Shown here piece by piece: positions 3,019-33,421 of a stretch of DNA of 34,159 nucleotides. Source of the DNA: Rhodobacteraceae bacterium HLUCCA09 (GTDB lineage: Bacteria; Pseudomonadota; Alphaproteobacteria; Rhodobacterales; Rhodobacteraceae). The position numbers and the translations under genes are program-made. The stretch covers positions 1 to 34,159 of the forward strand of contig LJNT01000123.1 of NCBI GenBank assembly GCA_001314685.1, read 5' to 3'. The notes beneath the pieces were generated by a model, which was not told the origin of the DNA, did not search any database, and was given only the letters and a program-made list of their open reading frames with translations. Numbering within the stretch: the stretch's first letter is position 1; each line of letters starts with the position of its first letter.

Positions 3019-4569
3019 ATGCACGACGACACGATCCGCAGCCTGATCGCCCCCCACCCCGACGACGCGCCCGCGCTCGGCGCGCCGGGGCGCGCCTGGC
3101 TGAGCTATGGTGGCCTGCGCGCGCTGTCGGATCGGGTCGAGGCGGGGCTGCGCGCGGCTGGCGTGGGCGCCGCCGATCGCGTGGCGATCGTGCTGCCGAA
3201 CGGGCCCGAGATGGCGGCGGCCTTCGTCACCGTGGCGCAGGCTGCCACGACCGCGCCGCTCAACTCAGCCTACCGCGAGGACGAGTTCGCCTTCTACCTC
3301 GAAGACCTCAAGGCGAAGGCCATCGTGGTCGAGGCGGGCTACGACGGGCCGGCGCTCGCCGCCGCCAACCGCTTCGGCCTGACGGTGCTGCGGCTCGAAC
3401 GCGACGAGGCCGACTCGGCCGGCACCTTCACGCTGACGCCCGACCACGCGACGGAGGCGACCCCCGCCGGCACGCCGGGGCCGGGCGACGTGGCGCTGAT
3501 CCTGCACACATCGGGCACCACCTCGCGCCCCAAGATCGTGCCGCTCCTGCACTCCAACGTCGCCGCCTCGGCCCGGCACATCGCCCAGTCGCTGGCGCTG
3601 ACGCCCGACGACCGGTGCCTCAACGTGATGCCGCTGTTCCACATCCATGGGCTTGTGGCTGCGGTCTCGGCGTCGCTCTCGGCCGGCGCCTCGGTCTGGT
3701 GCGCGCCGGGCTTCGACGCGCTGCGCTTCTTCGGCTGGCTGAAGGACGCGCGCCCGACCTGGTACACCGCCGTTCCGACGATGCACCAGGCGATCCTCGC
3801 CCGCGCGCCGCGCAACGCCGAGATCATCGCCGAGGCCAACCTGCGCTTCCTGCGCTCGTCGTCGGCCTCGCTGCCCGGCCCGGTGATGACCAAGCTCGCC
3901 GAGACCTTCGGCGCGCCGGTGATCGAGGGCTACGGCATGACCGAGGCAGCGCACCAGATGGCGTCGAACCCGCTGCCGCCCAGGGCGCAGAAGCCCGGCT
4001 CTGTCGGCCTGCCCGCGGGGCCCGACGTGCGCATCGCGCACGAGACCGAGGACAGGCTGCTGGCGGATGCAGGGCCCGACGCGGTGGGCGAGGTCGTCAT
4101 CTCCGGGCCCAACGTGACGCCGGGCTACGAGGGCAACCCCGACGCCAATGCCAGGTCGTTCTTCGAGGCCGAGGGCAGGCGCTGGTTCCGCACCGGCGAC
4201 CAGGGCGCCTTCGATGCCGAGGGCTATCTCGCGCTCACCGGCCGCCTGAAGGAGATCATCAATCGCGGCGGCGAAAAGGTCAGCCCGCTCGAAGTCGACG
4301 GTGTGCTGTCGGATCACCCGGCCATCGCGCAGGTCGTCACTTTCGCCCTGCCGCACGCCAAGCTGGGCGAGGAGGTGGCCGCGGCCGTGGTGCTGCGCGA
4401 GGGGGCCGAGGCGACCGAGCGCGAGATACGCGACTTCGCCTCCGGGCGCCTCGCCGACTTCAAGGTGCCGCGCAAGGTGGTGATCGTGGACGAGATCCCG
4501 AAGGGCGCCACCGGCAAGCTGCAGCGCATCGGGCTGGCCGAGAAGCTGGGGCTGGCCGAGACCGCCTGA
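3019..4569 (+). CDS. AMP-forming acyl-CoA ligase, oxalate-CoA ligase-like
   Basis: A 516-residue ANL-superfamily enzyme that would activate a carboxylic acid with ATP to an acyl-AMP and then the CoA thioester. Motifs in order: TSGTTSRPK at 164-172 (P-loop), PLFHIHGL near 205, YGMTE at 305-309, RTGD at 391-394, NRGGEK near 415 and the C-terminal catalytic Lys500 in PKGATGK. The signatures TSGTTSRPK, GMTEAAHQM-SNPLPP and KPGSVG resemble plant AAE3 and yeast Pcs60, which are oxalate-CoA ligases, more than generic FadD. No formyl-CoA transferase or oxalyl-CoA decarboxylase is nearby, so the substrate is inferred only. The start has a strong GGAGGAGG at 3005-3012. A ketopantoate-reductase-like gene follows on the same strand. 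Confidence 0.85.
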   Translation: MHDDTIRSLIAPHPDDAPALGAPGRAWLSYGGLRALSDRVEAGLRAAGVGAADRVAIVLPNGPEMAAAFVTVAQAATTAPLNSAYREDEFAFYLEDLKAKAIVVEAGYDGPALAAANRFGLTVLRLERDEADSAGTFTLTPDHATEATPAGTPGPGDVALILHTSGTTSRPKIVPLLHSNVAASARHIAQSLALTPDDRCLNVMPLFHIHGLVAAVSASLSAGASVWCAPGFDALRFFGWLKDARPTWYTAVPTMHQAILARAPRNAEIIAEANLRFLRSSSASLPGPVMTKLAETFGAPVIEGYGMTEAAHQMASNPLPPRAQKPGSVGLPAGPDVRIAHETEDRLLADAGPDAVGEVVISGPNVTPGYEGNPDANARSFFEAEGRRWFRTGDQGAFDAEGYLALTGRLKEIINRGGEKVSPLEVDGVLSDHPAIAQVVTFALPHAKLGEEVAAAVVLREGAEATEREIRDFASGRLADFKVPRKVVIVDEIPKGATGKLQRIGLAEKLGLAETA

Positions 4570-4580
4570 CACCCGCCCCG

Positions 4581-4636
4581 GCGGCGGCCAGCGCCGCTGC
4601 CGGAGGATTTTGCGTATTTGAAACAGAAAGAAGCAG
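4581..4636 (+). terminator. Hairpin plus T-rich Rhodobacterales-style intergenic motif
   Basis: Shortly after the ligase stop codon, GCGGCG (4581-4586) pairs with CGCCGC (4592-4597) and is followed by GGAGGATTTTGCGTATTTG and then AAACAGAAAGAAG. The hairpin with a T-rich tail looks like an intrinsic terminator. From memory, similar TATTTGAAACAGAAAGAAG-like strings recur between genes in Rhodobacterales genomes; this window contains only one copy, so the repeat status cannot be shown here. Confidence 0.45.
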
Positions 4637-4669
4637 GGGCGGGCGCGCGAGAGGCGTCCGGGGTGAGCG

Positions 4670-5650
4670 ATGCGGATCTGCGTGTTCGGGGCCGGGGCGA
4701 TCGGCGGGTACATGGGCGCGAAGCTCGCCCAGGCGGGGGCGGAGGTGAGCCTCGTGGCGCGGGGGCCGCACCTGGCCGCCATGAAGGCGAACGGGCTGAC
4801 GCTGATCGAGGAGGGGGAGCGCACGACCGTGCCCGTCACCGCCTCCGACGACCCCGCGACGCTGGGGCCGCAGGATTACGTGATCGTCACGCTCAAGGCC
4901 CATTCGGTGCCGCCCGTCGTGGGCAGGATGCAGCCGCTGATCGGCGACGACACCACGATCGTCTCCGGCGTCAACGGCGTGCCGTGGTGGTATTTCCACA
5001 AGATCGGCGGCCCGCTCGAGGGCACGCGGCTGGAGACGGTCGATCCCGGCAACGTCCAGTGGAACGGCTTCGGCCCCGACAGGGTGCTGGGCTGCGTCGT
5101 CTACCCGGCGGCCGAGGTGATCGAGCCGGGCGTCGTCAAGCACGTCGAGGGCAACCGGTTTTCGCTCGGCGAGCCCGACGGCTCGAAGTCGGAGCGGGCC
5201 GTGCGGCTGTCGACGGCGCTGACCGAGGCCGGGCTGAAGGCGCCCGTGCGACCCAAGCTGCGCGACGAGATCTGGGTCAAGCTCTGGGGGAACCTGTCGT
5301 TCAACCCCATCTCGGCGCTCACCCACGCCACGCTCGACGTCCTGTGCACCGACGAGGGCACGCGGCAGGTGGCGCGCGACATGATGCTCGAGGCGCAGAC
5401 CGTGGCCGAAAAGCTGGGCGTGAAGTTCCCCATCGACGTCGACCGGCGCATCCGGGGCGGCGCCGAAGTGGGCGCGCACCGCACCTCGATGCTGCAGGAT
5501 CTCGACATGGGCCGCCCGATGGAGATCGACGCGCTCGTGGCCTCGGTGGCCGAGCTCGGCCGTGTGACCGAGACGCCCACGCCCACCATAGACACGGTGC
5601 TGGCGCTGGTGCGTCTGCGCGCGCGGGTGGCGGGCCTCTACGGCGGCTGA
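4670..5650 (+). CDS. Ketopantoate reductase (ApbA/PanE) family protein
   Basis: A 326-residue NADP-dependent dehydrogenase. The N-terminal Rossmann motif is GAGAIGG (residues 7-13). The C-terminal domain has EIWVKLWGNLSFNPISALT, where Lys204 matches the catalytic lysine of PanE and the Asn-rich segment the substrate site. PanE reduces 2-dehydropantoate to pantoate for CoA synthesis, but many paralogues of this length act on other 2-oxo acids. The segment NGVPWWYFHKIGG marks a proteobacterial paralogue group rather than E. coli-like PanE, so the substrate is open. It lies 100 bases behind the acyl-CoA ligase with a terminator-like element between, so co-transcription is uncertain. Confidence 0.82.
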   Translation: MRICVFGAGAIGGYMGAKLAQAGAEVSLVARGPHLAAMKANGLTLIEEGERTTVPVTASDDPATLGPQDYVIVTLKAHSVPPVVGRMQPLIGDDTTIVSGVNGVPWWYFHKIGGPLEGTRLETVDPGNVQWNGFGPDRVLGCVVYPAAEVIEPGVVKHVEGNRFSLGEPDGSKSERAVRLSTALTEAGLKAPVRPKLRDEIWVKLWGNLSFNPISALTHATLDVLCTDEGTRQVARDMMLEAQTVAEKLGVKFPIDVDRRIRGGAEVGAHRTSMLQDLDMGRPMEIDALVASVAELGRVTETPTPTIDTVLALVRLRARVAGLYGG

Positions 5651-6741: not shown

Positions 6742-6857
6742 GCGTCCTCCTGTCAGGCAGCGGCAAGGTGGAGAGCGGCGAGAGCACGCGGGTCACACGG
6801 CCTCGCGGGTGCAATTGATGCGCTATGTGGCATGTCGGCGCCGCGTGTCCAGCCTCG

Positions 6858-7895
6858 CTAGCCCTCGAACAGGCCGGGCTGCGGTGGCGCCCCGCCGCCT
6901 GGGGCGGGCAGGCCGAGATGTGTCCAGCCCTTGTGCGCCAGCATCCGGCCGCGCGGGGTGCGCAGGATCAGGCCCTGCTGGAGCAGGAAGGGCTCGATCA
7001 CCTCCTCCAGCGCGTCGCGGGAGTCTGCCAGCGCGGCGGCCATCGTCTCGACCCCCACCGGCCCGCCGCCGTAATTCTCGGCCATCAGCGCCAGGTAGCG
7101 GCGGTCGGCCCCGTCGAGGCCGAGGTGATCGACGCCGAGCCGGGTCAGCGCAGCGTCGGCGAGCGCGCGGGTGATCGTGCCGTCGCCCTCGACCAGCGCG
7201 AAGTCGACCATCCGGCGCAGCAGCCGCCCCGCGATACGCGGCGTGCCGCGAGCGCGGGCCGCGATCTCGCGCACGCCGTCGGGCTGGGCGGCTACCCCCA
7301 TGAGCTGCGCGCCGCGGGCGACGATCCGCTCGAGCTCGGCGACGGTGTAGAATTGCAGCCGCACGGGGATGCCGAAGCGGTCGCGCAGCGGCGTCGTCAG
7401 CAGTCCGAGGCGCGTGGTGGCGCCGACGAGGGTGAAGGGCTGCAGGTCGATCCGCACGGTGCGCGCCGCCGGCCCCTCGCCGATCACGAGATCGAGCGCG
7501 AAATCCTCGAGCGCGGGGTAGAGCACCTCTTCTACCACTGGATTCAGCCGGTGAATCTCGTCGATGAACAGCACGTCGCGCGCCTCGAGATTGGTCAGGA
7601 TCGCGGCGAGGTCTCCGGGCCGGGCGAGCACGGGGCCCGAGGTGGTGCGGAAGCCCACGCCCAGTTCCTTCGCCATGATCTGCGCGAGCGTCGTCTTGCC
7701 GAGGCCGGGAGGGCCGTGAAACAGCGTATGGTCCATCGCCTCGCCCCGTCGCCGGGCGCTTTCGACGAAGACGCGCAGGTTGGCGCGCGCCTCCTCCTGC
7801 CCGACGAAGTCGGTCAGCCGCTCGGGCCGGAGCGCCCGATCGGCGGTGTCGCCCTCCATCGGCTCGGGGCGCAGGGTGGGGTCGGGCTCGGTCAT
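6858..7895 (-). CDS. ruvB: Holliday junction branch migration helicase RuvB
   Basis: A 345-residue AAA+ ATPase that drives branch migration of Holliday junctions with RuvA. Walker A is GPPGLGKT (61-68), Walker B VLFIDEIH (108-115), with sensor-type segments [19 protein letters not shown] and the winged-helix C-terminus ([18 protein letters not shown]). Length is normal for the family. The ATG is one base after the ruvA stop codon, so translation is very likely coupled. The operon order is ruvC, ruvA, ruvB. No LexA box was identified by eye upstream of ruvC. Confidence 0.98.
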
Positions 7896-7896
7896 C

Positions 7897-8562
7897 TCAC
7901 CCCTGCGGTGCCAGCGCCTTCAGCGCAGCGCGGATCAGGGCAGAGGCGTCGGCCTCCGGCGTTTCGGAGGCCGCCTGCGCCACGGCTGCCGCCGCCTCGC
8001 CCTGCGCGTAGCCCAGGTTGACGAGCGCCGACAGCGCGTCGGACTGCGCCGAGGCCGTCGGCGGCGGCGCGGCGGGCGCCGGGGCAGGTGCGGCTGGCAC
8101 GCCCTCCGTCGCCGAGGCCGCGCCAGGGGCGGATGCGGGCGTCGTGCCCATCGCCATGACCTCGGCCGCGCGACCCTTCAGCTCGTTCACCACCCGTTGC
8201 GCCAGCTTCGGCCCGACGCCCGGCGCGGCCTTGACCGCCGCCCAGTCGCCGAGCGCGATGGCGCGGCTCACGCCGTCGGGCCCCAGCGCGCCGAGGATGG
8301 CGAGGCTTGCGCGCGCGCCGATCCCCTGCACCGATGTCAGCAGGCGGTGCCACTCCTTTTCCTGCAGCGTGGAAAATCCGAAGAGCTGCAGCAGGTCTTC
8401 CCGCACCAGAAGGTCGGTGTAGAGCGCCGCGTGCCCGCCCACCGCCGGCAGCGCCGCGAGCGTGCGGTCCGAGACGTGGACGATGTAGCCCACACCGCCC
8501 ACGTCGAGCAGCACGTGGTCGGGGCCTCGCCAGTCCACCCGCCCCGCGAGCCGGCCGATCAT
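7897..8562 (-). CDS. ruvA: Holliday junction DNA-binding protein RuvA
   Basis: A 221-residue protein that binds the four-way junction and loads RuvB. The OB-fold N-terminus is [13 protein letters not shown] with GVGYIVHVS; two helix-hairpin-helix motifs follow ([14 protein letters not shown] and [17 protein letters not shown]). A flexible Ala/Pro linker precedes the RuvB-binding domain III ([20 protein letters not shown]). The ATG at 8560-8562 was chosen because MIGRL is the conserved family start; the open frame upstream lies in the ruvC region. The 10-base gap to ruvC and one-base gap to ruvB show an operon. Confidence 0.98.
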
Positions 8563-8572
8563 TGCCTCCCCC

Positions 8573-9082
8573 TCACTTTGCCGCGGCCCGCGCCAGCGCG
8601 GCCGAGAGGCGCCCGGCCGATTGCAGGTGATGGGCGTGGCAGATGGCGACGGCCAGCGCGTCGGCCGCGTCGGGGCCGGCAAGCGAGACGCCGGGAAAGT
8701 GCAGCCCGATCATGTGCGCGACCTGCCGCTTGTCGGCATGGCCTACCCCCACCAGCGCCTTCTTCACCGCATTGGGCGCGTATTCCCCCACTGGCAGACC
8801 CGCCTGCGCCGGCACCAGCAGCGCCACGCCGCGTGCCTGGCCCAGCTTCAGCGTGCCCGCGCCGTCGCGGTTGACGAAGGTCGCCTCGACCGCGGCGTGG
8901 GTCGGGGCATGGGCGGCGACCACCTCTGCCAACGCGTCGTGCAGGGCCAGCAGCCGCTCGGCCAGCGCCGCGCCCGCGCCCCGGCAGGTGCCGTTGGCGA
9001 CGTGGGCGATTCGCGCGCCCGACACGTCGATCACCCCCCAGCCCGTGCTGCGCAGGCCCGGATCGATGCCGATCACCCGCAT
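8573..9082 (-). CDS. ruvC: Crossover junction endodeoxyribonuclease RuvC
   Basis: A 169-residue RNase H-fold nuclease that resolves Holliday junctions. The catalytic acidic residues are visible: D7 in [16 protein letters not shown]67 in AVEATFVN, and D138 and D141 in [15 protein letters not shown]. The ATG at 9080-9082 is the family start; the upstream extension of the reading frame is not RuvC-like. It is the first gene of the ruvCAB operon, with 10 bases to ruvA. Its likely promoter lies in the 9083-9470 gap shared with the divergent DUF1127 gene. Confidence 0.97.
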
Positions 9083-9470
9083 CGCTGCCCCTCTCCCGCC
9101 TCCGGGTCCGCGCGCCTGCGGCGGCGCGGCCACACTTTGTTGCGACGTTTTGACGAGACTTAGCACGAACGGCGAACATCCGCCAATGCCCCGCGCCGCG
9201 CCGTCGCTTGTGAAGCGGCCCGGAAGCGACATCGCGCAGCCGGAATCCGCCATCTCTTTTCCGAAAGCGACATCCGCGATGTCGCGAACAGGCCTTTGAG
9301 AAGAAAAGAAAAATTTGGACTACCCGTCATGCGCACGGTGCATGGGAGCGATGCGGAACATACGGATTGCGCGGGCAATTCCCGCCTCATAATTCATCAC
9401 TGGAAGCGACGCTTCCCCGACCGGTTCCCCAACCCCCGCGCCCGCGCGGATCAGCCCACGGAGCAGCCCA
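9083..9470. promoter_or_regulatory. Shared upstream region of ruvC and second DUF1127 gene
   Basis: This 388-base gap has no credible gene. It holds several symmetric elements: GCGACATC-CGC-GATGTCGC (9267-9285), GCGGG-CAATT-CCCGC (9371-9385) and GGAAGC-GAC-GCTTCC (9402-9416). The string AAGCGACATC occurs near 9224 and again near 9265, and GGAAGCGAC near 9222 and 9402. A possible promoter for the DUF1127 gene is TTGCGC (9367-9372) and CATAAT (9388-9393), with a short 15-base spacer. The section around 9300-9330 is A-rich, unlike the surrounding DNA. Confidence 0.4.
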
Positions 9471-9677
9471 ATGGCCTATTTCGACATCAGAACCCCCGCC
9501 ACCGCCGGCCGTCTGGGCCGTGCCGTCGACACCCTCATCGCCTCGGTTGCCGACTGGCGCGAAGCGCGGATCAACCGGCGTGCCCTCGCCAAGCTGTCCG
9601 ACCGCGAACTGGCCGATATCGGCCTGCAGCGCTCGGACCTCGACACGATGACGCGCCGCGCGCTCAAGCGCTTCTAG
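9471..9677 (+). CDS. DUF1127 mini-protein, second copy
   Basis: A 68-residue protein ending in the DUF1127 signature ALAKLSDRELADIGLQRSDLDTM. It shares the core LSDREL-D-GL with the protein at 5805 but differs strongly in the N-terminal half (MAYFDIRTPATAGRLG), so the two are paralogues of different subgroups rather than a recent duplication. Start ATG is preceded by CGGAG about 7 bases upstream. It is divergent from ruvC and ends before a clear intrinsic terminator, so it is probably a single-gene transcript. An RNA-binding regulatory role is inferred from characterised DUF1127 proteins. Confidence 0.88.
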   Translation: MAYFDIRTPATAGRLGRAVDTLIASVADWREARINRRALAKLSDRELADIGLQRSDLDTMTRRALKRF

Positions 9678-9690
9678 GCCCGGAGCTGGC

Positions 9691-9760
9691 CGGGGGCAGA
9701 AGCCCCCGCGAGCCTCGGTCGAGCGAACCCCCGCCGTGCATGCCGCCGGCGGGGGTTTTT
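9691..9760 (+). terminator. Hairpin pair ending in an intrinsic terminator
   Basis: Two hairpins follow the DUF1127 stop codon: CGGGGGC-AGAA-GCCCCCG (9691-9708), then an 11-bp stem AACCCCCGCCG/CGGCGGGGGTT (9726-9736 with 9747-9757) running into TTTTT (9756-9760). The second is a textbook rho-independent terminator. In the reverse direction its AA/TT ends give little U-tract, so it mainly serves the plus strand. Confidence 0.85.
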
Positions 9761-9774
9761 CGTTCGTGCGCCGC

Positions 9775-11301
9775 TCAGTCCGCTCCCCTGACCGGGACCG
9801 CCGCGTCAGGGTCGGGGTGAAGTACCCGTTGCGCGAAGAGCGCGAGCGCCGCGCAGGCGAGCCCGGCTAGGTCGGTGGCCCAGCCCCCCTCGATCATCAG
9901 CAGCGCCGCGAGGATCAGCAGCGCGCGCAGATACCACGCCGCGCGCCCCCCCAGCACCCAGCCCTGCACGCCCGAGGCCAGCAGGAACACCCCCGCGGTG
10001 GCGGTGACGCCCGCGCGGCCCACCTCGAACCACGTGCCGTCCATCAGGAGCGCAGAATTGTAGAAGAACATGAACGGCACCACGAAGGCCGCGATGCCGA
10101 TCTTGAACGAGGCGACCGACGTCTCCATCGCGTTGGCCCCCGATATGCCGGCGGCCGCGTAGCTCGCCAGCGCCACGGGCGGCGTGATCGCCGAAAGCAC
10201 CGCGAAGTAGAACACGAAGAAATGCGCCGTCAGCGTGGGGATACCCAGCTCGACCAGCCCCGGCGCCACCACCGAGGCCGCGACCGCGTAGGCGGCGGTC
10301 GTGGGCATCCCCATGCCGAGCAGGATCGCGATGCACATGGCGAAGAACAGCGCGAGCAGTTGCGACACGCCGGCGAGGCCCAGCAGCAGGTTGGAGAACC
10401 GCGCGCCGACGCCGGTCAGCGAGATGACGCCCACGATGATGCCCGCGCAGGCACAGACCGCAATGATCTGCAGCGACATGACGCCCGCCACCTCGAAGGC
10501 CCGGCGGATGGCCCCGAGGCCCATGCGATAGGGCGTCAGCCACGACACGACCGCAGCCGCGGCGGTGGCATAGGTGCCCGCCCGGATCACGGAGTATCCG
10601 GCGAAGAGCGCGGCGATCAGGATGACGATGGGGATGAACAGGTAGATCTGCCCCAGCATCCGGCCGAGCTTGGGGATCTCGTCGTCGCGCATCCCCCGCA
10701 TGCCGAGCTTGGCCGCCTCGAAGTCGACCATGAAGTAGACCGAGACGAAGTAGAGCACCGCCGGAATGATCGCGGCGATGGCGATCTCCTGGTAGGGTAT
10801 GCCGGTGATTTCGGCCATGATGAACGCGCCGGCGCCCATGATGGGCGGCATGATCTGCCCGCCGGTGCTCGCCGCGGCCTCGACCGCGCCGGCCGTCTGC
10901 TTGCGGTAGCCGACCTTCTTCATCAGCGGGATCGTCAGCGAGCCTGTCGCCACCACGTTGCCCGCCGAGGTGCCGTTGATCATGCCCATCAGCCCGGAGG
11001 CGAAGATCGCCACCTTCGCCGGCCCGCCGCGTGCCCGCCCGGCGGCGGCGAAGGCGAAGTTGACGAAGTAGTCGCCCACCTTGGAGGCCTGCAGGAAGGC
11101 GGCGAAGATGATGAAGAGGATGATGTAGGTCGACGACACCGCCGTCGTCGGGCCAAGGATGCCCGCGTCGGAATAGACGTGTCCGAAGAAGCGCTGCCAC
11201 GAATACGGGTTCTGCACCGCGAGGATGCCGGGCAGCAGATGCGCGGTGAATACGTAGGCGAGGAAGATGCCGGTGATGATCACCAGCGCCAGGCCGGCCA
11301 C
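9775..11301 (-). CDS. TRAP transporter fused permease, N-terminally truncated
   Basis: A hydrophobic protein of about 508 residues with many transmembrane segments and DctM-type motifs (GLMGMINGTSAGNVVATGSLTIP, GGQIMPPIMGAGAF, GMGMPTTAAYA). This is the large permease of a TAXI-type TRAP transporter, which takes up organic acids using an ion gradient. Fused 4TM/12TM proteins are usually well over 600 residues; the N-terminal small-permease part is missing here. Permease-like coding continues upstream to about 11343 (GTALILELTRR) with no ATG, then abruptly meets the binding-protein gene in another frame. The GTG at 11299-11301 is the first possible start but has no clear ribosome site. It may be a pseudogene or be translated by reinitiation after the upstream stop at 11322-11324. 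Confidence 0.8.
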   Translation of the reverse strand: MAGLALVIITGIFLAYVFTAHLLPGILAVQNPYSWQRFFGHVYSDAGILGPTTAVSSTYIILFIIFAAFLQASKVGDYFVNFAFAAAGRARGGPAKVAIFASGLMGMINGTSAGNVVATGSLTIPLMKKVGYRKQTAGAVEAAASTGGQIMPPIMGAGAFIMAEITGIPYQEIAIAAIIPAVLYFVSVYFMVDFEAAKLGMRGMRDDEIPKLGRMLGQIYLFIPIVILIAALFAGYSVIRAGTYATAAAAVVSWLTPYRMGLGAIRRAFEVAGVMSLQIIAVCACAGIIVGVISLTGVGARFSNLLLGLAGVSQLLALFFAMCIAILLGMGMPTTAAYAVAASVVAPGLVELGIPTLTAHFFVFYFAVLSAITPPVALASYAAAGISGANAMETSVASFKIGIAAFVVPFMFFYNSALLMDGTWFEVGRAGVTATAGVFLLASGVQGWVLGGRAAWYLRALLILAALLMIEGGWATDLAGLACAALALFAQRVLHPDPDAAVPVRGAD

Positions 11302-11321
11302 CCGGCGCGTCAGCTCGAGGA

Positions 11322-12077
11322 TCAGCGCCGTGCCGGCGATGGCGCCGGTGCTTCCAGCGTCTGGTAGGTATCGGCCGCGATCTCGAACTCAGATACCGGG
11401 AACGCCTCCAGGATCTGCGCCCGCTCCTCCTCGGTGAACTCGATGATGTTGATGTCGGTCTGCACCTCGAGCTGGCTCACCGCCGGCACCGGCACGCCCG
11501 CGGCGAAGGCGATCACGTCGAGCAGACCGTCCTGCAGCTGGCTGCCGAGATCCGACCAGCCGCCGTTGCGGCGCTCGAAGTCGACGCCGAGCTCTTCCAT
11601 CATCCGGGGGAAGTAGGTGTCGGAGGTCGAGCCGGCCGGGCCGTAGCCGATCCGCGCGCCGTCGGGGATGTCGGAGATGCTCTCGATGCCCGACGAGGCC
11701 AGCGTCGTGATCGAGAACGGCGTCTGGTACATCGGGAACATCGCGCAGGCGTTCGTCATCTGCACGCCGGGCGCGATCGGGTTGGTGCCTTGCAGGCTCT
11801 CGGCCGCGGGGCCCATCGTCGTCATGCCGAACTGCGCCTCGCCGGTGTGCACGAGCGCCATGTTCTGCATTGGCCCGCCGGTGACTTCGCCGCCGCCCGA
11901 CAGGCCCAGCTCGTCGGCCACGAGGTTCGCCCAGCCCGAGCCATAGGCGAAGTAGGTGCCGCCCTGGCTCGCCGTGCCGACGGTGAAGCTCTCGGGCCAG
12001 CCTTCGCGGTCCTGCGCGAAGGCCGCGCCGGCGGTCGCCATGGCGACGGCGGCGGCGGTGATGGTGGTGATCTTCAT
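11322..12077 (-). CDS. TAXI-family TRAP substrate-binding protein, C-terminally truncated
   Basis: A 251-residue periplasmic binding protein with signal peptide (MKITTITAAAVAMATAGAAFA) and the TAXI-family opening FTVGTASQGGTYFAYGSGWANL. Further family segments are GGPMQNMALVHTGEAQFGM and the ARIGYGPAGSTSD region. TAXI proteins are normally about 320 residues; here the native sequence ends around residue 243 (DTYQTLEA) and is followed by a short foreign tail PAPSPARR. The tail is read out of frame from the permease gene. The start is firm, with AGGAGGAG just upstream of the ATG at 12075-12077. The missing C-terminal lobe makes normal binding doubtful. Confidence 0.82.
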   Translation of the reverse strand: MKITTITAAAVAMATAGAAFAQDREGWPESFTVGTASQGGTYFAYGSGWANLVADELGLSGGGEVTGGPMQNMALVHTGEAQFGMTTMGPAAESLQGTNPIAPGVQMTNACAMFPMYQTPFSITTLASSGIESISDIPDGARIGYGPAGSTSDTYFPRMMEELGVDFERRNGGWSDLGSQLQDGLLDVIAFAAGVPVPAVSQLEVQTDINIIEFTEEERAQILEAFPVSEFEIAADTYQTLEAPAPSPARR

Positions 12078-15740: not shown

Positions 15741-15907
15741 CCTGCCCGATCTGCCGCAGGCCCTCCCACCCCGATTACCGCCCCTTCTGCTCGCGGCGCT
15801 GCGCCGACGTCGATCTCGGCCGCTGGCTGACCGGCGCCTACGCCATCCCCACCGACGAGGGCGAGGACGAAGAGGCCGAGCGCCCGAAGCCGCCAGAGGG
15901 GGAGTAG
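15737..15907 (+). CDS. yacG: DNA gyrase inhibitor YacG
   Basis: A 56-residue zinc-binding protein. The four zinc ligands are C3, C6, C18 and C22 ([25 protein letters not shown]), matching YacG, followed by an acidic tail. E. coli YacG binds GyrB and inhibits gyrase. It overlaps the RNase gene by ATGA and ends the infA block. The 100 bases after it contain no recognisable gene or clear terminator. Confidence 0.93.
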   Translation: MTCPICRRPSHPDYRPFCSRRCADVDLGRWLTGAYAIPTDEGEDEEAERPKPPEGE

Positions 15908-16007
15908 GGCAGCGCAGAAGCGGGAAGAGCAGTGCCCGACCGCGACCCGGCGATACGCCTGGCGGAGCGATACTCCCTGCGACTGGACAAGGGACGACGA
16001 GCGCCCG

Positions 16008-16575: not shown

Positions 16576-17172
16576 ATGCCGCTGGTCGAACCGCTGGAGG
16601 AAGAGGCGCTCGAGCCCGAGCTCCGCGACGAGATGCAGTTCTTCAAGGGGCCGCTCGGGGTGATCCCGGCGAGCGTGCGCACGATGGCTCACCGCCCCGA
16701 GATCGCCCGCGCCTTCACCGCGCTGAACCGGGCGGTGATGGCCGAGCAAGGGGCGGTCACGCCCGAGTTCAAGAGGCTCTTGGGCTACATCTCTTCGTTC
16801 GCGTCGGGGTGCCGCTACTGCCAGGCGCACATGATGCTGGCCTCGGAGCGCTTCGGTGCGAGCGAGGCGCGGATGGAGACGGTCTGGAGCTACGAGACGA
16901 GCCCGCACTTCACCGACGCCGAACGCGCCGCGCTCGCCTTCGCGCAGGCCGCGACCGAGGTGCCCAACGCCGTGACTTCCGAGGTCGGCGCCCGCCTGCG
17001 CGCCCACTGGGCGCCGGAGGACATCGTCGAGATCATGGGGGTCGTCGCGCTCTTCGGCTGGCTCAACCGATGGAACGACTCGATGGGCTCGGCGCTCGAG
17101 GACCTGCCGCGCCAGACCGCCGAGACGCGCCTCGTGCGCCAGTCGGGCTGGGAGATCGGCAAGCACGGCTGA
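16576..17172 (+). CDS. AhpD-like / carboxymuconolactone decarboxylase-family protein
   Basis: A 198-residue all-helical protein with the AhpD redox motif CRYCQAHM (C79, C82, H85). The family contains alkylhydroperoxidases that use the CxxC pair and is often annotated as peroxidase-related. Upstream segments GPLGVIPASVRTMAHRPEIARAF and FKRLLGYISSFASG are typical. GGGAGG at 16565-16570 supports the start. It lies opposite the HugZ-like gene and just before a universal stress protein, in a group of small stress and redox genes. Substrate unknown. Confidence 0.88.
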   Translation: MPLVEPLEEEALEPELRDEMQFFKGPLGVIPASVRTMAHRPEIARAFTALNRAVMAEQGAVTPEFKRLLGYISSFASGCRYCQAHMMLASERFGASEARMETVWSYETSPHFTDAERAALAFAQAATEVPNAVTSEVGARLRAHWAPEDIVEIMGVVALFGWLNRWNDSMGSALEDLPRQTAETRLVRQSGWEIGKHG

Positions 17173-17219
17173 ACCCCGGCGAGCGATCCGGGGATGTGCC
17201 GGCCCTCGCGCTGTGCGGA

Positions 17220-17277
17220 GCGCGACACGGCCACATCTTGACCTGCGGCCGCCTTTCCCGGCGTAGTCGTGTCGCGC
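17220..17277. repeat. 10-bp inverted repeat upstream of uspA
   Basis: GCGCGACACG (17220-17229) and CGTGTCGCGC (17268-17277) are perfect inverted copies with 38 bases between them. TTGACC at 17238-17243 lies inside and could be a -35 element, but no good -10 follows at normal spacing. The arms might be an operator pair for the uspA gene at 17316. Confidence 0.4.
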
Positions 17278-17315
17278 GCGCCCGCATCGCCGTAGCAGGC
17301 GGGACAGGAGGATCG

Positions 17316-17723
17316 ATGTACGACAACATTCTGGTGCCCGTCTCGTTCGAGCCCGACCGCAACGCGCAGGAGGCGATCGACATCGCCCAGGGGCTGGCCG
17401 AGGGTGGCGCCGACATTACGCTGTTGCACGTGATCGAGCAGATCCCGCCCTATGCCGCCGCCTACCTGCCGCGCGATCATTTCGATCAGGCGCACCGTCG
17501 CATCGCCGAGGCGCTGGCCACCCTGGCCGACGGGGTGCCGGGCGCACGGGTCGAGGTGATCTCGGGTCATGCCGGGCGGTCGATCGTCGACTGGGCGACC
17601 GAGCATCGCGTCGACTGCATCGTGATCGCCTCGCACCGCCCCGGCATGGCCGACCTTCTGATCGGCTCGACGGCGGCGCAGGTCGTCCGCCACGCGCCCT
17701 GCGCGGTGCACGTGCTGCGCTGA
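17316..17723 (+). CDS. Universal stress protein UspA family
   Basis: A 135-residue single-domain Usp. It opens MYDNILVPVSFEPDRNAQEAI and closes with the nucleotide-binding stretch IVIASHRPGMADLLIGSTAAQVVRHAPCAVHVL, where G-M-A-D-L-L-I-G-S matches the ATP-binding class pattern. Usp proteins accumulate in stress or stationary phase; their molecular role is often unclear. The ribosome site CAGGAGGA precedes the ATG. A 7-bp hairpin CGCCCCG-CGC-CGGGGCG at 17760-17776 after the gene may end the transcript. Confidence 0.93.
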   Translation: MYDNILVPVSFEPDRNAQEAIDIAQGLAEGGADITLLHVIEQIPPYAAAYLPRDHFDQAHRRIAEALATLADGVPGARVEVISGHAGRSIVDWATEHRVDCIVIASHRPGMADLLIGSTAAQVVRHAPCAVHVLR

Positions 17724-17813
17724 AGCGCGCACGCTCCCCCGCGACGCGCCGCCTTTTCGCGCCCCGCGCCGGGGCGTGCTACGCTGTGGCTGCGCACATC
17801 GAGGGAGGAGCCG

Positions 17814-18146
17814 ATGCCGAGGATCGAGAAGGACGCGCCGGGCCAGACCGTGATCACCACGTTCGAGATGACGCCCGGCACCGCGCAGGACCTGATGGAC
17901 GAGCTGCGCGCCGCCTATGACGGCTTCATCTCGCGCCAGCCCGGCTTCATGGGGGCGGGGCTGCACATGAACGACGCGCAGACGCGGATCGCCAACTACT
18001 CGATCTGGGCGAGGCGCGACGATTTCCAGGCGATGCTGCGCTCCGACGAGATGCGCGAATACAACCGCCGCTTCGCCGCGCTCTGCTCGCGTTTCGAGCC
18101 GGTGATGTACGAGGTGATGGCGACCTACGAGGGAGGGCAGGAATGA
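17814..18146 (+). CDS. Antibiotic biosynthesis monooxygenase (ABM)-fold protein
   Basis: A 110-residue ferredoxin-like-fold protein. The strand-helix pattern VITTFEMTPGTAQDLMDELRAAYDGF, then QPGFMGAGLHMNDAQTRIANYSIWARRDDFQAML, is typical of the ABM/dimeric alpha-beta barrel superfamily. Members include small monooxygenases and heme-degrading enzymes, but many are uncharacterised. GAGGGAGGAG precedes the ATG. Its stop overlaps the next start (ATGA), coupling it to a secreted rhodanese. Function is not predictable from sequence. Confidence 0.85.
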   Translation: MPRIEKDAPGQTVITTFEMTPGTAQDLMDELRAAYDGFISRQPGFMGAGLHMNDAQTRIANYSIWARRDDFQAMLRSDEMREYNRRFAALCSRFEPVMYEVMATYEGGQE

Positions 18147-18745
18147 GACGGACGATCGGAGCGGCGGCGCTGGCTGCCTTCGCGCTGACGGGGGCGGCCT
18201 TTGCCGAGGACCGGCCGGTGGGACTCGCGCCCGACCTGCCATCGGTCACGGTCGATACGCCCCAGGGGCCGGTGGTCATCGAGCGCATCCAGGACCCGGC
18301 CCACGAGGTGACGGGCGAATGGGCGCGCACCTCGCGCGAATGCCCGCCCTTCTGCATTCAGCCGATCGAGCCCGCGCCGGGCGTGAAGACGATCGGGGAG
18401 CTGGAGCTGATCGCGGCGCTACAGGATCCCGACGTCGTGGTGATCGACAGCCGGACGCGCGACTGGTTCGAGGGCGGCACGATCCCCGGTGCGGTCAACA
18501 TGCCCTACCTCGAGGCGGTGGAGCGCATGGCCGAGCTCGGCTGCGAGATCGGCTTCGACGAGTGGGATTGCACCGGGGCGACGCGGATCGCGCTGTTCTG
18601 CAACGGGCTGTGGTGCGGGCAGTCGCCCACGGCGATCCGCTGGATGATCGACGCCGGCTACCCGGCCGAGCGCATCTCGTACTACCGGGGCGGGATGCAG
18701 TCGTGGCGCGTGCTCGGCCTGACGGTGACGTCGCCCGACGACTGA
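18143..18745 (+). CDS. Secreted rhodanese-like protein
   Basis: A 200-residue protein with a signal peptide (MRRTIGAAALAAFALTGAAFA) and one rhodanese domain (about residues 80-195). The domain shows VVVIDSRTRDWFEGGTIPGAVNMPY and the active loop region LFCNGLWCGQSPTAIRWM, with the probable catalytic Cys153 and a nearby Cys158. The pre-domain segment also has two cysteines (ECPPFC, 67 and 71). Rhodaneses transfer sulfane sulfur; a periplasmic form with paired cysteines could also bind a ligand or sense redox state. It is coupled by ATGA to the ABM gene. Confidence 0.88.
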   Translation: MRRTIGAAALAAFALTGAAFAEDRPVGLAPDLPSVTVDTPQGPVVIERIQDPAHEVTGEWARTSRECPPFCIQPIEPAPGVKTIGELELIAALQDPDVVVIDSRTRDWFEGGTIPGAVNMPYLEAVERMAELGCEIGFDEWDCTGATRIALFCNGLWCGQSPTAIRWMIDAGYPAERISYYRGGMQSWRVLGLTVTSPDD

Positions 18746-19122
18746 CCGTCAGGTGCCGACCGGCCGGGGGCGCTCCCGCCTCCGCTCGCGGCCATGCGGC
18801 CGCTCGCTCCGTTGGGCCCGGCGCCCGCGCGCGGGCGCTCGGCGCGCCGGGTCCGCGCGCGCCGTGGGATGGTGAGCGACGCGAGGGGCTCGGACTCACC
18901 CGAGCGGATGCGCGCGGGCCCGCCCTGGCCATCCTCGCCAGTTTCGGCCCCTGCCGGCCGCACCGCCTGCCGGGCCATGCCCCGGCAGGCGAGGACGGCT
19001 CGGGAGCGGATCGCCCGCGGGCTGCCGTCGGCGCGGGTGGAGGCGTGGCGGCCTTGCCTTCGGCGCGCGCGGCGCGGAAGATTAGCGGGCAGATCACCGC
19101 AGGGCGAGAGGGAGGCAGCGGC
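18746..19122 (+). other. Palindrome-rich gap before the purine operon
   Basis: This 377-base stretch has no credible gene. It contains an 18-base perfect palindrome at 18821-18838 and a 10-bp stem GCCTGCCGGG/CCCGGCAGGC at 18965-18990 with loop CCATGC. The first could end the rhodanese transcript. No obvious sigma-70 promoter stands out; the purine operon promoter must lie here or further upstream. Confidence 0.4.
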
Positions 19123-20547
19123 GTGCACCGCTATCCGCGCGACATGATCGGCTACGGGGCCATGCCGCCCGACCCGCGCTGGCCCGACCGGCGCTGGCCC
19201 GGCGGCGCCAGGATCGCCGTGCAGATCGTGGTCAACTACGAGGAAGGCGGCGAGAACTGCCTGCTGCACGGCGACCCGGCGTCCGAGGCCTTCCTGTCGG
19301 AGATCGTGGGCGCTGCCGCCTGGCCCGGCCAGCGGCACTGGAACATGGAGTCGATCTACGAATACGGTGCGCGCGCCGGCTTCTGGCGGCTGCACCGGAT
19401 ACTCGGCGCGCGGGGCATCCCCGCCACCGTCTTCGGCGTGGCCACGGCGCTGGCGCGCAGCCCCGAACAGGTGGCCGCCATGCAGGAGGCGGAGTGGGAG
19501 ATCGCGAGCCACGGGCTGAAATGGATCGAGCACGCCGGACTCGGCGAAGGCGAGGAACGCGCCCAGATCGACGCGGCGATCCGCCTGCACGTCGAGGTGA
19601 CGGGCGCCCGGCCGCGCGGCTGGTACACCGGCCGCTGCTCGATGAACACGGTGCGCCTGGCCGCCGAGGCGGGGATGGACTACGTGGCCGACTCCTATGC
19701 CGACGACCTGCCCTACTGGCTGCGCACCGGCGGGCGCGACCAGCTGATCGTGCCCTACACGCTCGATGCCAACGACATGCGCTTTGCCACGGCGCAGGGC
19801 TTCAACTCGGGCGACCAGTTCGAGGCCTACCTGCGCGACAGCTTCGATACCCTCTACGCCGAGGGGCAGGCGGGCGCGCCAAAGATGATGTCGATCGGCC
19901 TGCATTGCCGCCTCGCGGGGCGGCCGGGCCGGGCGGCGGCGCTCGCCCGCTTTCTCGACCATGCCTTGCAGCACGAGGGCGTGTGGTTCGCCCGCCGGAT
20001 CGACATTGCCGAGCACTGGGCGGCGTATCACCCGCCGCGCCCCCGCGAGCGCCCCTCGGAGATGGACAAGGCCCGCTTCGTCGAGCTGTTCGGCGGGGTG
20101 TTCGAGCACTCGCCGTGGATCGCCGAGGGGGCCTGGGGGCTCGAACTCGGCCCCGCCCACGACACGCCGGCCGGTCTGCACAACGCGCTCGCGCGCGTCT
20201 TTCGCACCGCGCCGGAGGAAAGGCGGCGCGAGGTGCTCCGCGCCCATCCCGATCTTGCCGGCAAGCTCGCGGCTGCCAGGCGGCTGACCGCGGACTCGGC
20301 CGCCGAACAGGCCAGCGCCGGCCTCGACGCGCTGACCGATGACGAGCGCGCCCGCTTCACGTCGCTCAACGAAGCCTATATGGAGAAGCACGGCTTTCCC
20401 TTCATCATCGCCGTGCGCGATCACGACAAGCCCTCGATCCTGGCCGCCTTCGCGCGGCGCCTCGGAAACGACAGCGCCACCGAATTCGCCGAGGCGTGCG
20501 CCCAGGTCGAACGCATCGCACGGCTCCGGCTGGACGACACGCTGTGA
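19123..20547 (+). CDS. puuE: Allantoinase PuuE fused to OHCU decarboxylase
   Basis: A 474-residue bifunctional enzyme of urate breakdown. Residues about 1-305 are a PuuE-type, polysaccharide-deacetylase-fold allantoinase (PRDMIGYG, VVNYEEGGENCLLHGD, WEIASHGLKWIEH, HCRLAGRPGR). The last about 165 residues are a 2-oxo-4-hydroxy-4-carboxy-5-ureidoimidazoline decarboxylase (FVELFGGVFEHSPWIAE, the catalytic-His segment LRAHPDLAGKLA, and EQASAGLDAL). The decarboxylase makes S-allantoin, which the N-terminal domain then opens to allantoate. The GTG at 19123 is chosen because GGAGG at 19111-19115 is well spaced and HRYPRDMIGYG is the family start. It overlaps the next gene by GTGA. Confidence 0.93.
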   Translation: MHRYPRDMIGYGAMPPDPRWPDRRWPGGARIAVQIVVNYEEGGENCLLHGDPASEAFLSEIVGAAAWPGQRHWNMESIYEYGARAGFWRLHRILGARGIPATVFGVATALARSPEQVAAMQEAEWEIASHGLKWIEHAGLGEGEERAQIDAAIRLHVEVTGARPRGWYTGRCSMNTVRLAAEAGMDYVADSYADDLPYWLRTGGRDQLIVPYTLDANDMRFATAQGFNSGDQFEAYLRDSFDTLYAEGQAGAPKMMSIGLHCRLAGRPGRAAALARFLDHALQHEGVWFARRIDIAEHWAAYHPPRPRERPSEMDKARFVELFGGVFEHSPWIAEGAWGLELGPAHDTPAGLHNALARVFRTAPEERRREVLRAHPDLAGKLAAARRLTADSAAEQASAGLDALTDDERARFTSLNEAYMEKHGFPFIIAVRDHDKPSILAAFARRLGNDSATEFAEACAQVERIARLRLDDTL

Positions 20548-21389
20548 GACTCGACAACACGACGACGCCCGTCACCTACGCCTTTCCCCGCGCCGGCCTT
20601 CCCGCGCAGGGTGCCGAGCCGCTGGGCCGCGCCATCTTTACCGAGGCCTACGCGGTCATCCCCGCCGACGTGCAGACCGATATCGTCACGTCGTTCCTGC
20701 CCGGCTGGGAGAACGCCCGCGCCTGGATTCTCGCGCGCCCGCTCTCGGGCTTCGCCGAGACCTTCGCCTGGTACGCGCTGGAGCTGCAGCCCGAGGGCGG
20801 CAGCGCCGATCCCGAGCCGGACGTCGAGGCCGAGGCGTGGCTCTTCGTGACGCACGGGCGACCGCGGCTGACGCTGGGGCGCGCGCAGATCGACCTCGAG
20901 CCGGGAAGCTACGCCTACATCCCGCCCAGCGCTGTCTGGACGCTGTGGAACACCGACGGCGAGATGGCGGGCGTCCACTGGATCCGGAAGCGCTACCAGC
21001 GCGCGCCCGGCCTGCCGCGGCCCGAGGCCTTCGTGAAGCACGAGACCGAGGTCGAGGCGGTGCCGATGGAGAACTGCGAGGGCATCTGGGCCACGCAGCG
21101 CTTCGTCGACCCATTCGACCTGACCCACGACGCGCACGTGAACATCGTCAACTTCGCGCCGGGCGGGCGCATCCCCTTCGCCGAGACACACGTGATGGAG
21201 CACGGGCTGTTCGTGCTGCAGGGCACCGCGCGCTACCTGCTCAACCGCGACTGGGTCGAGGTCGGGCCGGGCGACTTCCTGTGGCTGCGCGCCTTCTGCC
21301 CGCAGGCCTGCATCGCCACGGGCACCGAGCCGTTCCGCTACATGCTCTACAAGGATTGCAATCGCCACCCGGGCCTCGCGCGGCCATGA
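20544..21389 (+). CDS. allE: (S)-ureidoglycine aminohydrolase-type bicupin (AllE-like)
   Basis: A 281-residue protein made of two cupin domains. The C-terminal cupin carries the metal-binding pattern in NFAPGGRIPFAETHVMEHG and FVLQGTARYLL; the N-terminal one has the segment EAWLFVTHGRPRLTLG. AllE/UGlyAH uses manganese to deaminate S-ureidoglycine to S-ureidoglycolate. The GTG start overlaps the PuuE-fusion stop and the gene ends in an ATGA overlap with allA, so the three enzymes are co-translated. An allantoate amidohydrolase (AllC-type) needed between allantoinase and this step is not in the window. Confidence 0.88.
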   Translation: MRLDNTTTPVTYAFPRAGLPAQGAEPLGRAIFTEAYAVIPADVQTDIVTSFLPGWENARAWILARPLSGFAETFAWYALELQPEGGSADPEPDVEAEAWLFVTHGRPRLTLGRAQIDLEPGSYAYIPPSAVWTLWNTDGEMAGVHWIRKRYQRAPGLPRPEAFVKHETEVEAVPMENCEGIWATQRFVDPFDLTHDAHVNIVNFAPGGRIPFAETHVMEHGLFVLQGTARYLLNRDWVEVGPGDFLWLRAFCPQACIATGTEPFRYMLYKDCNRHPGLARP

Positions 21390-21919
21390 GGGCGGCGCCC
21401 GAGCTCGCCGCTCTCGTGGCCGAGCCGCTGACGGCAGAGGTCTTCGCCCCCTTCGGCGAGGTGCTCGAGGCGACAGGGGCGCATGTGCTCATCAACGAGG
21501 GGCGATGCCGGCGTTACTCCGATCTCGCCGCGCTCGACATCGCCGAGGGGCGGGCGGGCGTCTCGCTCTTCGCGGCCGAGCCACGGGCGTGGCCCGTCGC
21601 CGTGCCGTTGGTCGAACGGCACCCGCTCGGTTCGCAATGCTTTCTGCCGATGTCGGGGGGCGGGTGGCTGGTAGTGGTGGCGGGCGACGGGCCGCGCGGG
21701 CCCGAGGGCCTGCGTGCCTTCCTCGCCCGGGGCGACCAGGGGGTGAACATCGCGCGCGACACTTGGCACGGGGTGCTCTGCCCGCTGGGCGAGGCGGGGG
21801 CGACGGTGCCGCGCCTGTTCGCCGTGGTTGACCGGATCGGGAGGGCGGGCGAGCCTGCCGGCGCCAACCTCGTCGAGCATCGCTTCGCCGCGCCGCTGGT
21901 CGTGCGCCAGAGCGCGTGA
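21386..21919 (+). CDS. allA: Ureidoglycolate lyase
   Basis: A 177-residue cupin-like enzyme that splits ureidoglycolate to glyoxylate and urea. Family segments include AEVFAPFGEVLEA near the start, the central HPLGSQCFLPM and the DTWHGVLCPLG motif near the end. Length matches AllA. The ATG overlaps the preceding stop (ATGA). Together with the two upstream genes it covers the late part of allantoin degradation to glyoxylate. Confidence 0.92.
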   Translation: MRAAPELAALVAEPLTAEVFAPFGEVLEATGAHVLINEGRCRRYSDLAALDIAEGRAGVSLFAAEPRAWPVAVPLVERHPLGSQCFLPMSGGGWLVVVAGDGPRGPEGLRAFLARGDQGVNIARDTWHGVLCPLGEAGATVPRLFAVVDRIGRAGEPAGANLVEHRFAAPLVVRQSA

Positions 21920-25607: not shown

Positions 25608-27188
25608 TCAGGCCGCCAGCCGCCCCGCCAGCCCGTCCTCGATCAGGCGCACGGTCTCGTCGACGCCGTAGAGCGCGACGAAGCCCCCGAAGCGCGGGCC
25701 CTGGCTGGCGCCCAGCAGCACCTCGTAGAGGGCACGGAACCAGTCGCGCAGCGGCTCGAAGCCGTGTTCGCGCCCGACCGCGAACACCACCGATTGCAGC
25801 GCCTCGGCGTCGGTCTCGCCCCGGTGCGCGCGCAGCCGCTCGGCCAGGTCGCGCATCGCCGCCGCCTCCTGCTCGGTGGCCTCGCGGAACACCTTCGCCG
25901 GCTTCACGAAATCGGCGTAGTAGCGCACCGCGCCGGCCGCCGCCGCGTCGAGCTGAGGGTGGGTTTCGGGCGATGCGTCGGGGGCGTAGCGGCGGATGAA
26001 GCCCCACAGCGCGTCCTTGTCGTCGGCATGGGCGACCGAGGCGAGGTTGAGCAGCATCGCGAAGCTCACCACCATGTCCGAGACCGGCGGGTGCCCCTCG
26101 TGGATGTGCCAGACGGGGTTGGCGAGCTGCTGCGCCAGATCCTGCTTCGGGAAGGCCTGAAGCTGCTGGTGATACTCGTCGACCGCCTTGGGGATCACGT
26201 CGAAATAGAGCCGCTTGGCCGTCTTGGGCTTGCCGAACATGAAGTAGGACAGCGACTCGGTCGGCGCGTAGGCCAGCCATTCGTCGATGGTAAGCCCGTT
26301 GCCCTTCGACTTGGAGATCTTCTCGGCGTTCTCGTCGAGGAACAGCTCGTAGGTGTAGTGCTCGGGCGCCCGCGCGCCGAGGATCTCGCAGATCCGGTCG
26401 TAGACCGGCGTGTTGGTCGAGTGGTCCTTGCCATACATCTCGAAATCGACGCCGAGCGCCGCCCAGCGCGCGCCGAAATCGGGCTTCCACTGCAGCTTCA
26501 CGTTGCCGCCGGTAACGGGCAGCGTCCATTCCCGTCCGTCCTCGTCGTCGAAGGTGACAGTGCCCTCGCGCCCGTCCACCTGCTTCATCGGCACGTAGAG
26601 CACCCGGCCCGTCTCGGGATGGATCGGCAGGAAGATCGAGTAGGTCTGCCGCCGCTCGTCTCGCAGCGTCTTGAGCATCACGGCCATCAGGTCGTCATAG
26701 CGCTGGGCGGCGCGCAGCAGCACCTCGTCGAAGGCGCCCAAGCGATAGAACTCGGTCGCCGAGATGAACTCGTACTCGAAGCCGAACGTGTCGAGAAAAC
26801 GCCGGAGCATCGCGTTGTTGTGGTGGCCGAAGCTCTCGTGCGTGCCGAACGGGTCGGGCACGGAGGTCAGCGGCTTCTGCAGGTGCTCGCGCAGCGCGCC
26901 CGGGTCCGGCACGGTGTCGGGGATCTTCCGCATCCCGTCGAGGTCGTCGGAAAAGCAGATCAGCCGGGTGGGGATGTCGCTGATCGTCTCGAAGGCCCGG
27001 CGCACCATCGTCGTGCGCAGCACCTCGCCGAACGTGCCGATGTGCGGCAGGCCGGAGGGGCCGTAGCCCGTCTCGAACAGGACGTGCCCCTTCTCGGGCG
27101 GGCCGGCCTCGTAGCGCCTGGCGACGGCACGGGCCACCTCGAAGGGCCAGGCCTTGGACGAGAGCGCGGCGTCGCGGAGATCGGACAT
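25608..27188 (-). CDS. lysK: Lysyl-tRNA synthetase, class I
   Basis: A 526-residue class I LysRS, the archaeal and alphaproteobacterial type that charges tRNA-Lys. The HIGH-type motif is [14 protein letters not shown] (HIGT at 49-52) and the KMSKS motif is KISKSKGN (290-296). Length is normal. The ATG at 27186-27188 is the family start ([17 protein letters not shown]); the reading frame stays open upstream but lacks family features. A good sigma-70 promoter lies 40 to 70 bases upstream. Confidence 0.96.
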
Positions 27189-27227
27189 CTTGGGGCTTCC
27201 GGGATGGGGGGGAGCGGTCAGGCCGCG

Positions 27228-27256
27228 TATATCGCCCCTCGGCCCGCCCGCGTCAA
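27228..27256 (-). promoter_or_regulatory. lysK: Probable lysyl-tRNA synthetase promoter
   Basis: On the minus strand, TTGACG (27256-27251) and GATATA (27233-27228) are separated by exactly 17 bases. Transcription would start near 27221, giving a leader of about 33 bases before the ATG. This is one of the better sigma-70-like promoters visible by eye in the window. Confidence 0.55.
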
Positions 27257-27302
27257 CAAAAGGCCGGCCGTCCATGGGCGCGGGCAAGCGACGCGCGTGA
27301 CA

Positions 27303-27332
27303 AGAAAATGGCCGGGGCACGAGGCCCCGGCC
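27303..27332 (-). terminator. Intrinsic terminator of the response-regulator gene
   Basis: A 9-bp stem GGCCGGGGC/GCCCCGGCC (27310-27318 with 27324-27332) reads on the minus strand into ATTTTCTTG. The stem and T-rich tail fit a rho-independent terminator for the minus-strand response regulator that stops at 27473. Confidence 0.65.
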
Positions 27333-27472: not shown

Positions 27473-28159
27473 TCAGGCCACCAGCCGGTAGCCCCCGCTC
27501 TCGGTCACCAGCAGGCGGGCGTTCGAGGGGTCGGGTTCGATCTTCTGCCGCAGGCGGTAGATGTGCGTCTCGAGCGTATGGGTCGTCACGCCGGCATTGT
27601 AGCCCCAGACCTCGTGCAGCAGAACGTCGCGCGCCACCACCCCTTCCGTCGCCCTGTAGAGGAACTTGAGGATGTTCGTCTCCTTCTCGGTCAGACGGAT
27701 CTTGCGCTCGTTCTCGTCGATCAGAAGCTTCATCGACGGCTTGAACGTATAGGGCCCGAGCTGGAATACCGCGTCCTCGCTCTGTTCGTGCTGGCGCAAC
27801 TGCGCCCGGATTCGCGCGAGCAGGACGGGAAACTTGAAGGGCTTGGTGACGTAGTCGTTCGCGCCAGCATCGAGGCCGAGAATCGTGTCGGCATCGCTGT
27901 CGTGGCCTGTAAGGATGAGGATGGGGCACTTCACCCCCTGCTTGCGCATCACCCGGCATAACTCGCGCCCGTCGGTGTCTGGCAGGCCCACATCGAGGAT
28001 GACGAGGTCGAAAAAGCCCTCCTTCACCTTCGTCATGGCCTCGTGGCCATCGCCCGCCTCGAACACGTCGAAATCCTCGGTCATCACGAGTTGTTCCGAC
28101 AGCGCCTCGCGCAGGTCTTCGTCGTCGTCGACGAGCAGGATCTTCTTGAGGTTGGGCAT
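27473..28159 (-). CDS. OmpR-family response regulator
   Basis: A 228-residue two-domain regulator. The receiver domain has the acidic pocket VDDDEDL (10-16), phospho-acceptor Asp56 (LVILDVGLPD), Thr84 (LILTGHD) and a Lys in NDYVTKPF. The C-terminal winged helix (KIRLTEKETNILKFLYRATEGVVARDVLLHEVWGYN, THTLETHIYRLRQKIE) is OmpR/PhoB-type. No histidine kinase is adjacent. It could be the CenR-type regulator described in Rhodobacter and Caulobacter envelope control, but I cannot confirm this without a search. It is divergent from ribA. Confidence 0.94.
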   Translation of the reverse strand: MPNLKKILLVDDDEDLREALSEQLVMTEDFDVFEAGDGHEAMTKVKEGFFDLVILDVGLPDTDGRELCRVMRKQGVKCPILILTGHDSDADTILGLDAGANDYVTKPFKFPVLLARIRAQLRQHEQSEDAVFQLGPYTFKPSMKLLIDENERKIRLTEKETNILKFLYRATEGVVARDVLLHEVWGYNAGVTTHTLETHIYRLRQKIEPDPSNARLLVTESGGYRLVA

Positions 28160-28318
28160 GTCTCGCGTTCCCTTCCTGATGTTATCACGCAGATGGGAGG
28201 GGCTGCGGGACGGGCAAGGCTTGCTACAGCCTCTCACGGCCATGTGTCGCAGAGGCGGGATATGTTTCAATTCGGCCCGCGCGCGGCTACATCTCGCGGG
28301 TCCGCCCGAGGCCCGCCC

Positions 28319-33360: not shown

Positions 33361-33421
33361 CGTTTTCCCTCGTATGTTCAAAGGTGGACCGCAACCCGGA
33401 GGGCCAGATTGGGTATGCGCC

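Follow-up and report, generated by a model that had tools for sequence, protein, structure and literature searches.

A recent internal deletion of about 1.15 kb has probably broken a TAXI-TRAP gene pair in the stretch of 34,159 nucleotides analysed here (the window), which is the entire contig C75 of the draft genome G000. It would have joined the 5' three quarters of the binding-protein gene to the 3' two thirds of the gene for the fused permease, with a change of reading frame. The outcome would be the loss of one transporter, leaving no complete binding protein and a transport domain deprived of both its scaffold part and a good start; three other complete TAXI-TRAP systems are still present. 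The gap is presumably present in the DNA of the organism itself, although an assembly misjoin would look alike, because G000 (4.13 Mb) is a draft of 226 contigs and 92.7% complete. Overall, the finding looks like either the ordinary loss of one transporter or a flaw of the assembly. The features concerned are as follows.

11322..12077, minus strand: 5' remnant of a TAXI-family TRAP binding-protein gene, recognized by partial matches to Pfam PF16868 and TIGR02122, by tblastn and by the intact homologue in genome G001
9775..11346, minus strand: 3' remnant of a TAXI-TRAP fused permease gene, recognized by Pfam DctM (PF06808), TIGR02123 and alignment with G001
11341..11350, strand not given: deletion junction, at which 1151 bp of G001 are absent (local and global alignment)

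The two remnants and the junction

One other genome of the same genus, G001, served as the intact reference. On its locus L035, the binding protein (6792-7772, 326 aa) and the permease (7939-10242, 767 aa) are separated by a spacer of 166 bp. This pair (TIGR02122/PF16868 and TIGR02123/PF06808) has the same gene order, strand and family as that in the window, but the window lacks 1151 bp and both of its genes are incomplete. The binding-protein frame starts with the ATG at 12077, is homologous to about 11347 and then runs through an out-of-frame tail to the TGA at 11324-11322, giving 251 aa compared to 326 aa in G001. Its homology is lost near residue 245-247, and tblastn with the G001 protein matched residues 1-247 in the window. 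The remnant covers profile positions 5-251 of 320 in TIGR02122, above the family cut-off, and a full-length TAXI binding protein is not encoded at this locus.

The permease begins at about 11346 in a different frame, which is open and corresponds to residues 246-767 of the 767 in G001, with 98% amino acid identity. It matches positions 103-609 of 615 in TIGR02123, again above the family cut-off, and positions 3-406 of 413 in DctM. The tblastn match with the G001 permease begins at residue 238, slightly ahead of the true join because a few residues match by chance. With residues 1-245 of the intact homologue missing, the locus does not hold a fused permease with both a Q-like and an M part. Among the best 80 of 592 matches, the nearest relatives of the permease were Marivita and other alphaproteobacterial assemblies, at 86-87% protein identity. 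Profiles and alignment thus confirmed the initial annotation, in which the binding-protein sequence stopped and the permease sequence started within a few bases and in another frame.

Global alignment of window positions 11500-11200 with G001 contained a single gap of 1151 bp (L035 7523-8673), lying between window positions 11347 and 11346 and within the deletion of roughly 0.6-1.3 kb that had been proposed earlier. Local alignment returned these two blocks as well, with a three-base overlap at 11342-11344, so that the join could be placed to within a few bases. Lost with the 1151 bp were binding-protein residues ~245-326 (the last ~82), the spacer and permease residues 1-245 (735 bp, 245 codons). 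Because 1151 is not a multiple of 3, the frame shifts at the join. The C-terminal lobe of the binding protein, the spacer and the N-terminus of the permease had been named as missing, and all three stretches are indeed absent. However, a separate lobe would be the wrong description if the layout of the TAXI protein VcGluP applies, in which, according to the available text of PMC11574862, domain 1 includes the C-terminal residues, which follow a hinge strand and form no separate C-terminal lobe. By analogy, this layout may hold for the binding protein of the window too.

The kept parts share 92-93% DNA identity with G001, and the only other indel within their coding parts is one of 3 bp at 9796-9798. 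Relative to its intact orthologues, the locus is disrupted as a pseudogene would be. Pseudogene formation by internal deletion is a known process, and the window resembles it in the clean internal loss, the frame shift and the intact relatives, with nothing unusual. Accumulated further damage, another trait of pseudogenes, was not found in the kept parts.

Related loci were compared with the G001 proteins at 90 places, ten from whole genomes (one being the G001 locus itself) and 80 from a named collection; all of them had been retrieved by likeness to the kept part of the permease, and the same species may occur twice. A pair was taken as full length when the binding-protein match reached at least residue 300 and the permease match began at residue 60 or before. 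Both genes were full length in 87 of the 90 loci. L137 and L139 had a binding protein matched to residue 322 and a permease matched from residue 75, and L073 was cut by a contig edge, leaving 89 loci that could be judged, none of which had a short form like that in the window. The expectation of intact loci in relatives was therefore borne out in G001 and in these 87 loci. Two irregularities were seen among the comparators. In L038 (G049:C4), the spacer between binding protein and permease was estimated at ~1.5 kb, compared to about 8-284 bp in the other full-length loci, and may hold an inserted gene. In L024 (G012:C20:37682-39466) and L025 (G059:C3:40981-42675), the permease match fell into two adjacent pieces, each of which includes query residues about 234/241 to 294/297; a duplicated internal segment, or an insertion that splits the match, would give such a pattern.

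Route and age of the loss, and the assembly

Exact matches were sought between the two 200-nt ends of the missing piece in G001, with 60 random pairs at the same distance as a control. The best match was 10 nt long, at unmatched offsets (-69, +23), and the random pairs gave 6-12 nt. Repeat-mediated deletion and repeat collapse were both rejected, since the shared 10-mer lies within the random background, and a repeat scan of the area in the window returned only imperfect, GC-rich similarities. Because the ends share no repeat above background, the join was most likely made with little or no homology, and a deletion between such sites would be the likely route. Judged by eye, a microhomology of 2-4 nt is possible at the join.

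The same result bears on the assembly. We consider it rather unlikely, though well worth weighing, that the locus is intact in the organism and that ~1.15 kb was lost when contig ends were joined, or when a chimeric or minority molecule was followed by the assembler or in scaffolding. A draft of 226 contigs is open to such errors, neither side of the gap shows decay, and 87 of the 90 comparator loci are intact. However, an ordinary repeat collapse, one form of the assembly collapse that the initial annotation had suggested, is unlikely given that any similarity between the ends stays within the random background; a misjoin of another kind may have occurred. Nor was the missing DNA recovered at another place among the G000 candidates that were scored. 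A search for the 1151-bp piece covered four genomes and matched it in G001 (100%), in G025 (69%) and in G048, where the match came in two parts; in G000, where 40 of the 462 first-look candidates were scored, there was no match. Within these scored candidates, translocation of the piece within the genome was rejected, the same search having recovered it in G001 and its positive controls having worked.

The lack of a second loss of this size also argues against an error of assembly. Collinearity with G001 extends over window positions ~1950-34159, and the aligned blocks contain no other indel of more than 20 bp. Two stretches between blocks differ in length, with 174 bp in the window compared to 146 bp in G001, and 121 bp (15887-16007) compared to 17 bp. 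From three further contigs of G000, 58.8 kb was fetched and ~44.6 kb aligned (blocks of at least 300 bp at 80% identity or above). The largest loss there was about 70 bp, between two blocks, alongside two gains, one of about 0.24 kb and one of about 2.2 kb. In the ~77 kb of G000 sequence aligned in all, no other loss was as large as the gap of 1151 bp.

In comparison with G001, the kept parts of the two genes have dN/dS values of 0.153 for the binding protein (244 codons) and 0.050 for the permease (507 codons). Four outgroups allowed two amino acid changes in the binding protein to be assigned to the window lineage and none to that of G001, with 9 of 11 unassigned; in the permease, three fell on the window lineage and four on the G001 lineage, with 5 of 12 unassigned. 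In these small numbers, neither dN/dS nor the assignment to lineages revealed relaxed selection or further damage in the kept parts. As a yardstick we used 15 other reading frames of the window, picked from the list of open reading frames. Values of 0.125 (RuvB), 0.121 (RuvA), 0.068 (GNAT) and 0.156 (Maf) were obtained for four frames that are sound and match a Pfam family, and the binding protein lies at the upper end of their range. Three frames that had no family test gave 0.092 (4670-5650), 0.088 (25608-27320) and 0.172 (32305-33381). The remaining eight had higher values and were set aside by judgement, their frames being taken as wrong, over-long or overlapping.

8573-9253: ruvC, dN/dS 0.349; starts upstream of its domain and overlaps ruvA
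18319-20547: dN/dS 0.349
20339-21919: dN/dS 0.680
27473-29416: dN/dS 0.736
29996-31828: dN/dS 0.724
16890-18242: dN/dS 1.189
3265-4839: dN/dS 1.820
118-1851: dN/dS 1.046, matched at 33% identity only

The frames at 18319-21919 (plus strand) include one of 742 aa with polysaccharide deacetylase and OHCU decarboxylase domains and another ending in ureidoglycolate lyase, which suggest a purine-degradation cluster.

Because the kept pieces show no decay, the lesion is either very young or absent from the organism as an error of assembly, and the lack of secondary damage fits an artefact equally well as a recent deletion. The transporter had earlier been described as possibly decaying; this holds in that the pair is broken, but the retained codons have not accumulated damage.

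What is left of the transporter

The structure of an intact Marivita homologue (L060) was modelled from 30 sequences (mean pLDDT 79.7, pTM 0.79). Its long helices comprise residues 36-57, 81-98, 115-143 (broken at 124), 163-189, 199-219 and then 234-255. Using a common Gly (243 in L060, 250 in G001), the cut maps to about L060 residue 239, inside the helix 234-255, so that the removed part holds five long helices predicted for the Q-like part, plus the beginning of a sixth. The fused HiSiaQM (8thi_A) aligns to the model over 37-675 (Z 20.4). The separate M subunit of the Photobacterium SiaQM (7qha_B) aligns over 256-676 (Z 18.7) and starts ~17 residues past the cut; almost the same region is covered by VcINDY and other DASS-type carriers. 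Foldseek TM-scores by query length were modest, at 0.40-0.48 for the TRAP entries. On this model, the deletion is predicted to take away the Q-like part and to leave nearly the whole transport (M) domain.

Past the join, no ATG, GTG or TTG occurs in frame before the GTG at 11301, ~45 nt on, and a start there would drop the first 15 residues after the cut. The list of start codons contained none between the in-frame stop at 11391 and this GTG, and no clear ribosome-binding site was seen by eye ahead of it. In the consulted sections of PMC11574862, transport by TRAP systems is said to depend obligately on the binding protein, and the membrane components of TAXI systems are described as only ever single fused chains. 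Without a start codon close to the join or a complete binding protein, the transporter of the window has most likely lost its function.

It is very unlikely that the short form is functional, with the M domain translated from the GTG at 11301 or later, for instance if ribosomes re-initiate past the stop at 11322, and working without scaffold and binding protein or with another TAXI protein. The nearly complete DctM match in the kept part, the alignment of 7qha_B from L060 residue 256 and of VcINDY-like DASS carriers over nearly the same stretch, and the permease dN/dS of 0.050 are in keeping with this. However, the time before the deletion accounts for the low dN/dS, the first start lacks a clear ribosome-binding site and costs 15 residues, no such form occurred in the 89 judgeable comparator loci, and the Q part of HiSiaQM is entirely scaffold as far as the excerpt of PMC10942642 describes it. 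A minimal carrier, that is an M domain which is expressed alone, free of scaffold and binding protein, and moves its substrate like a DASS-type carrier, would in principle agree with the nearly whole M domain that is left but is more improbable still; if true, it would be the sole part of wider interest. The earlier suggestion of a reduction to a core permease, taken as a product that works, is not supported, since the locus offers neither a start close to the join nor a complete binding protein.

For annotation, both reading frames should be marked incomplete and the genome should not be credited with the transporter of the window. The locus could serve as a small case of the loss of one of four parallel TAXI-TRAP systems, with little general importance. 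Four TAXI proteins above the cut-off were found in each of G000 and G001. In G000, three others are complete and each adjoins a TRAP_fused match, on C62, C90 and C129, which answers the question of whether another intact TAXI-TRAP system exists in the genome; G001 has three other TAXI systems and the intact copy of that in the window. With the window permease as query, one other place in G000 reached E 1e-80 (C90, 46% identity; 14 of 20 candidates scored), and on this result from sequence comparison the other permeases are distant paralogues. The pair is like the two-gene system rsp_1412/rsp_1413 of Cereibacter sphaeroides in consisting of a TAXI binding protein and one membrane component, a likeness of composition and not of orthology or substrate. 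In the portion of PMC12632250 at hand, sodium-dependent L-glutamate uptake is proposed for that system, and deletion of both genes removed the corresponding growth. Near another TAXI-TRAP locus of G000, on C62 (L159 13618-16208), ~2.6 kb stands against 0.4 kb in G001 and may represent an insertion.
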